64,000 bases of DNA from a bacterium. GTDB taxonomy: Bacteria; CG2-30-53-67; CG2-30-70-394. Below are positions 39,023-42,221 of this stretch, in pieces. The translations under genes and the position numbers were made by a program. Each line of letters starts with the position of its first letter. The first letter of the stretch is position 1. The stretch spans positions 1 to 64,000 of the forward strand of contig JAJRSX010000183.1 of the NCBI GenBank assembly GCA_024278555.1, given 5' to 3'. A model generated the notes under the pieces. It was not told where the DNA came from, ran no database searches, and was given only the letters and a program-made list of their open reading frames with translations.

Positions 39023-39379
39023 GGCAGACCGAGGATAGAGGGATTCGAAGGCGCACAGGGAACCACGCCCGGCGGTCGCGGGCCAGATGTCACCTCACCC
39101 CATCATCGTCGGGTGAGGATCTCCCGCGTAGAGGCCAAGACGCAGAGGAGGCCTTCGCGGTCGATGCTGAAGCCGATCCCGCTCTGACGTGAGCCGTGGG
39201 CGACGGCCGCGCCGTCGCTCGATCTCCGATCCATTCCGGGAGTGTTTCATGGGTACCCTGCTTTTCGCGGGGGGCTCTGGCCGGCCGCCGCCACCGCTGC
39301 TCAGGATCCGCACCACATCCCCCCCCGGGCCTCATCGCCCGCCTGCACCGCACCGACCTCGAAAGAGGGTCGGGCCGGA
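39023..39379. other. Gap without a supported gene
   Basis: Upstream of proS and downstream of the dsrC-like gene. Several overlapping short frames exist in different phases on the minus strand, none with family motifs or a ribosome site. I see nothing functional beyond possible proS promoter sequence. Confidence 0.5.
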
Positions 39380-39415
39380 CCACCGGGAGAGGGGGCATCT
39401 CCCCTCTCCCGGTGG
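39380..39415 (-). terminator. Hairpin after the dsrC-like gene
   Basis: A 15-bp perfect stem (CCACCGGGAGAGGGG at 39380-39394 with 39401-39415) and a 6-nt loop, 10 nt past the stop of the minus-strand gene. There is no T run, so it is a likely but unusual terminator or 3' stabiliser. Confidence 0.6.
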
Positions 39416-39424
39416 CTCTCCTGC

Positions 39425-39829
39425 CTACCCGTCGATGCAGTCGTACGGCTTCGGCAGGCCGGCAAACTTGGTGCCCTGGAAGGCCGGCCCCTTGGGGAAG
39501 AGCTCGTACAGGTGGTCGCGGTCGAGCTTCTCGTCGCCCCACTCCGCGCGCAGGTGGCGCAAGAGGATGCGGACATTGGGGGAGATGAGGTACTCGGCGT
39601 AGTAGCGGCGCAGGTAGTCGAGGATCCGCCAGTGCTCCTCGGTGAGGGCAATCCCGTCGAGGTGGGCGAGGACCGCGGCGATCTCCGGCGTCCACTGGTC
39701 TCGCTTGAGCATGTAGCCGTCATGGTTGGTCTCGACGGTCATGCCGTGCATGGTGATCTCTTTGCCGTGCGGGGTCGGGCGGACGGTGACCTTGCCGGCG
39801 GGGGTGTTGAGCGTTGCGGTGGTGGACAT
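39425..39829 (-). CDS. DsrC/TusE-family sulfur-relay protein
   Basis: 134 residues. The family core is clear: DGYMLKRDQWTPEIAAVLAHLDGIALTEEHWRILDYLRRYYAEY and SPNVRILLRHL. It ends in KPYDCIDG, so a single Cys lies at residue 131, four from the end, where DsrC has its penultimate reactive Cys. The second DsrC Cys is absent, as in TusE-like members. DsrC/TusE proteins carry persulfides in sulfur metabolism or tRNA thiolation. The ATG follows GAGGAG, which overlaps the end of the SelW-like gene; the two form one unit. Confidence 0.88.
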   Translation of the reverse strand: MSTTATLNTPAGKVTVRPTPHGKEITMHGMTVETNHDGYMLKRDQWTPEIAAVLAHLDGIALTEEHWRILDYLRRYYAEYLISPNVRILLRHLRAEWGDEKLDRDHLYELFPKGPAFQGTKFAGLPKPYDCIDG

Positions 39830-39839
39830 GGCGGTCTCC

Positions 39840-40079
39840 TCAAGGTTGGGGGTTGTGTCCGAGGGCCTCGATCCGTGCCGCCACCTCCCCCTCTTCGGGA
39901 AAACGGCCCGTGGTGCGCTTGGAGAAGAGGAGCTCCCCGTTGACGGCCACCTCGAAAACCCCCCCGTTGCCGCGCACCAGCTCGGGGGTGGCTCCGAAAC
40001 GGTGCTCCAGCTCGGTCGCCAGCCTGGCGGCCCGGGGGCGGTAGTTTCACTGGCCGCAGTAGAGGATCTCGATCTTCAA
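39840..40079 (-). CDS. SelW/Rdx-family selenoprotein (in-frame TGA = Sec)
   Basis: The gene reads from TTG 40079 (GGAG 10 nt upstream) to TGA 39840, 79 residues, if the TGA at 40049-40047 is read as selenocysteine 11. The N-terminus is then KIEILYCGQ-U-NYRPRAARLA, the C-x-x-U redox motif of SelW-like Rdx proteins. The rest matches that family on both sides of the TGA: TELEHRFGATPELVRG, GGVFEVAVNGELLFSKRTTGRFP and EEGEVAARI. The frame is open, well conserved and properly placed after the TGA. A SECIS-like hairpin follows it. It sits 10 nt before the dsrC-like gene. A nonsense-mutated Cys form is the alternative; Sec machinery genes are not in the window. Confidence 0.85.
40017..40029 (-). promoter_or_regulatory. 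Bacterial SECIS-like hairpin
   Basis: Read on the minus strand, CGCCA-GGC-TGGCG forms a 5-bp stem with a GGC loop. The loop begins 22 nt after the UGA and starts with G, within the known bacterial SECIS limits (loop 16-37 nt from UGA, G among the first two loop bases). The stem is short. Confidence 0.65.
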
Positions 40080-40286
40080 GGGTTGGCTCCACGGTGGATC
40101 TCGGACTCGGTGTGGAGAAAACATACCAAAAAACATAGAGATTGTCCGTTGATCCCGTTGCAGTCCTACCTTGGCCTTCGAATTCTTGCCTGACTGAATT
40201 GCCTGGGGCATGGTGCCGACCCTTTGACCTCGTGTTGGTTTTGACCCATCTCTATAGTTTGCTGTGTCTAAAGGAGGGCCTCATCC

Positions 40287-42221
<1,935 letters not shown>

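Follow-up and report, generated by a model that had tools for sequence, protein, structure and literature searches.

The occurrence of a TGA codon inside a short frame with features of the Rdx/SelW family raises the question of whether the codon ends the gene or encodes selenocysteine (Sec). The frame lies on the minus strand of the window, by which we mean the whole 64,000-nt stretch of contig JAJRSX010000183.1 analysed here, and the first-pass annotation had read it as one SelW-like gene running through the TGA at 40049-40047. Direct reading of the sequence and the family matches bear this out. From 40079 to 39840 the translation is LKIEILYCGQ-U-NYRPRAARLATELEHRFGATPELVRGNGGVFEVAVNGELLFSKRTTGRFPEEGEVAARIEALGHNPQP, followed by a terminal TGA, which gives 79 amino acids plus the stop, with a single in-frame TGA at residue 11 (Table 1). 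Translation most likely starts from TTG at 40079. When the TGA is translated as Cys, the Pfam Rdx profile (PF10262) matches the whole protein (E = 4.9e-22; residues 2-71, profile positions 1-73 of 74), as does the NCBIfam model NF041051, named 'SelT/SelW/SelH family (seleno)protein' (93.6 bits for a cut-off of 88). The part that follows the TGA matches Rdx on its own (1.4e-14), so the domain truly spans the in-frame codon; both Rdx matches are far beyond chance. No Pfam family was matched in the overlapping open reading frames at 39739-40092 (minus strand), 39726-40193 (plus strand), and 39242-39943 (plus strand). The locus is a clean example of a gene that a standard-code list of open reading frames splits or misses.

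Table 1. Features of the selW-like locus and its neighbours (positions in the window).
Feature	Position	Strand	Evidence
Predicted selW-like (Rdx family) selenoprotein gene	39840..40079	-	PF10262 4.9e-22; NF041051 93.6 bits; frame reading
Predicted Sec codon, in-frame TGA of the C-G-Q-U motif	40047..40049	-	TGA in 58/66 loci, TGC/TGT in the other 8
Likely ribosome-binding site (GGAG), 7 nt before the TTG	40087..40090	-	Direct sequence reading
Putative apical stem-loop of a bacterial SECIS, CGCCA-GGC-TGGCG	40017..40029	-	Stem covariation among 56 non-redundant Sec relatives
TusE/DsrC/DsvC family gene, starting 10 nt past the selW-like stop	39425..39829	-	PF04358 7.5e-36; TIGR03342 3e-36
Acetyl-CoA synthetase gene	40287-42221	divergent from the selW-like gene	

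We gathered related loci by similarity to the window protein and aligned them. Comparison with the 65 other loci places the TGA at the second redox position of a CxxU motif (CGQU), where the first-pass annotation had put it; at this exact position, each of the 66 readable loci, the window's own included, has either TGA or a codon for Cys. The 58:8 ratio of TGA to Cys codons is not a census, because the loci were found by their similarity to the window protein. They come from Pseudomonadota, Thermodesulfobacteriota, Bacillota, Chloroflexota, Planctomycetota, Verrucomicrobiota, and other phyla. The TGA form also goes together with selA: among the 193 genomes sampled, selA scored above its cut-off in 26 of the 27 with the TGA form vs 66 of the 166 others (Fisher p = 1.2e-8). 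The sole genome with the TGA form and no selA over the cut-off (G038) is 86% complete.

The genome that contains the window (G000; 3.06 Mb in 211 contigs, given as 100% complete and 0.68% contaminated) was searched for the four sel genes, as had been proposed at first pass. Far from lacking them, it has the full Sec machinery: selA (541 bits), selB (326 bits), selD (357 bits, around positions 5886-6809 of contig C210; locus L018 1501-2535), and selC, a tRNA-Sec gene (77.2 bits) whose anticodon is TCA. All of these gene tests indicate that the organism uses Sec. Its selD also encodes a selenoprotein, having an in-frame TGA at CAG-U-AS, the known Sec site of SelD. Since the selW-like gene and selD each have an in-frame TGA, at least two genes would use Sec in this genome. 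In the same genome, molybdopterin oxidoreductases, peroxiredoxin-like proteins, and CMD/AhpD proteins were screened as possible further selenoproteins, and none of the matches contained an in-frame TGA.

A bacterial SECIS requires a G at the start of its loop, 16-37 nt from the UGA (range as given by the first-pass annotation). The predicted hairpin has a GGC apical loop at 40024-40022, which opens with G and begins after 22 nt from the TGA, within this range. It had been described as a hairpin with a GGC loop starting 22 nt after the TGA; the hairpin and its loop are there, but the distance is true of the apical loop, and the 5-bp stem (CGCCA/TGGCG) starts at the 18th nt. Folding of the single sequence was dropped as evidence for a SECIS: its stability relative to shuffled sequences is not beyond chance (z = +0.78), and 16 of 60 synonymously recoded versions equalled the hairpin. 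We used covariation among relatives instead, and it is only through this comparison that the hairpin is significant.

In most of the Sec genes, the best hairpin has its loop start 21-22 nt past the TGA. Across six stem positions in 56 non-redundant Sec sequences, 292 of 336 cells are paired, vs a mean of 257 in 5000 permutations (sd 3.8, highest value 270; relatedness not corrected for) and no more than 179 when the partner is shifted along. The pair formed by nucleotides 18 and 30, both third codon positions, is made in 50 of the 56 sequences vs 32.4 expected, and it occurs as C-G, G-C, A-T, T-A, and T-G. When both codons are those of Ala (GCN), 36 of 40 sequences pair, a value that 0 of 20,000 shuffles reach, although these shuffles ignore relatedness. 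With the analysis restricted to Ala codons, the protein sequence cannot account for the pairing. Because several pair types occur in different phyla, the simplest reading is repeated compensatory change in the SECIS stem. The first base of the loop is G in 54 of the 58 Sec genes vs 4 of the 8 Cys genes.

What is observed here is the protein family, a TGA at the redox position, a genome with the Sec machinery, and a hairpin that is conserved and covaries. Together with the alignment of relatives, these observations support the first-pass reading of Sec insertion, and the in-frame TGA is almost certainly read as Sec. We infer that the mechanism is ordinary SelB/SECIS-dependent insertion, in which SelB carrying Sec-tRNA would bind the hairpin just past the UGA and the ribosome would insert Sec at that codon. 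The product would be a 79-residue protein with a thioredoxin fold and a CxxU centre, expected to be expressed and most likely to act as a thiol/selenol oxidoreductase. Judged from the sequences, the locus very probably encodes a working bacterial SelW-like selenoprotein, likely an oxidoreductase.

Two other readings of the TGA have to be weighed against Sec insertion. The gene could be a pseudogene, decayed from a Cys form of Rdx whose TGC or TGT became TGA, or the TGA could be a base-calling error in the assembly. Cys forms do exist, one of them in the same class, and the sister species lacks the gene. Against this, 57 other loci spread over many phyla have TGA at the same codon, the remainder of the frame is intact and typical of the family, the SECIS hairpin is in register, and the genome holds the full Sec machinery. 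We regard this reading as highly improbable; because the same codon is TGA in the 57 other loci, a base-calling error in particular is very unlikely. In the other reading, simple read-through places Trp or some other standard residue at the TGA, or the TGA is a real stop followed by a downstream restart. Low-level read-through is always possible, and nothing specific speaks for it here. The position is only ever TGA or a Cys codon in the 66 loci and never one for Trp, the TGA form tracks the presence of selA, and a product restarted past the TGA would lose the redox motif, all of which leaves this reading with a negligible share of the probability. Sec insertion is accordingly the reading that we retain below.

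The distribution of the gene within the host class is patchy. Among its eight genomes (G000-G007), the Sec form of SelW is found only in the window's genome, and the Cys form only in G007, which belongs to another family (locus L043, CNTC). No Rdx match was found in the six other genomes of the class, which include one other genome of the same genus, the sister species. selA is present in all eight genomes, so the gain or loss of the selW-like gene is independent of any loss of Sec decoding.

This exact type of bacterial selenoprotein was already known in 2005, and curated NCBI models cover it. SelW-like proteins were the most abundant family of the Sargasso Sea selenoproteome (48 genes, with CxxU), and the family was already known then (PMC1088965). 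They were again the most abundant in the GOS survey, with 427 Sec vs 56 Cys sequences (PMC2398784), and a survey of bacteria found them in Geobacter, Desulfotalea, Alkaliphilus, Symbiobacterium, and others (PMC1794560). The window gene shares with these proteins, described by Zhang and Gladyshev (PMC1088965, PMC2398784, PMC1794560), the CxxU motif, the Rdx/SelW family, and a SECIS immediately downstream; as among the relatives of the window gene, the Sec form outnumbers the Cys form. It differs only in its host lineage and in its TusE/DsrC-family neighbour.

The window protein matches the models of the SelT/SelW/SelH family (PF10262, NF041051, TIGR02174) over its whole length and above the curated cut-offs. 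Its closest solved relative, 2ojl, has Cys where the window protein has Sec; the solved relatives also include bacterial proteins, e.g., 2p0g. Mammalian selenoprotein W (2npb) belongs to the same family by sequence (3.8e-6), and its centre is CxxU, as in the window protein. Eukaryotic SECIS elements are located in the 3' UTR, whereas that of the window gene lies inside the coding region. The SelW-like family, the recoding mechanism, and the wide bacterial spread have all been described previously; the finding is sound and unremarkable. With it, one more bacterial lineage joins the users of Sec. What it offers more widely is the evidence from covariation for the SelW SECIS, together with the TusE/DsrC neighbour and the UxxU relatives described below.

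The TusE/DsrC-family gene is probably co-transcribed with the selW-like gene. Its product matches TIGR03342, with a score under the TusE equivalog cut-off; it keeps the C-terminal cysteine (KPYDCIDG), and the second cysteine of true DsrC is apparently missing. No such gene was found beside other selW-like relatives in the flanks examined, which were short in many cases. One could imagine that the SelW-like selenoprotein partners the adjacent protein, e.g., by reducing its conserved C-terminal cysteine or by passing electrons in a sulfur relay, an idea that we consider unlikely. If true, the pairing would supply a substrate for the bacterial SelW-like family.

A UxxU motif was reported previously in the GOS survey for a Prx-like family, not for SelW (PMC2398784). 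Two of the SelW-like loci gathered here have TGA at both redox positions, one from a Chloroflexi MAG and the other from the Verrucomicrobia assembly AG-313-K16 (L058 3001-3213 and L082 3001-3213), and their UxxU motifs read YUQQUNY and YUGMUNY. In each, the single hairpin would fall about 34 nt past the first TGA and 22 nt past the second, and could thus serve both codons.
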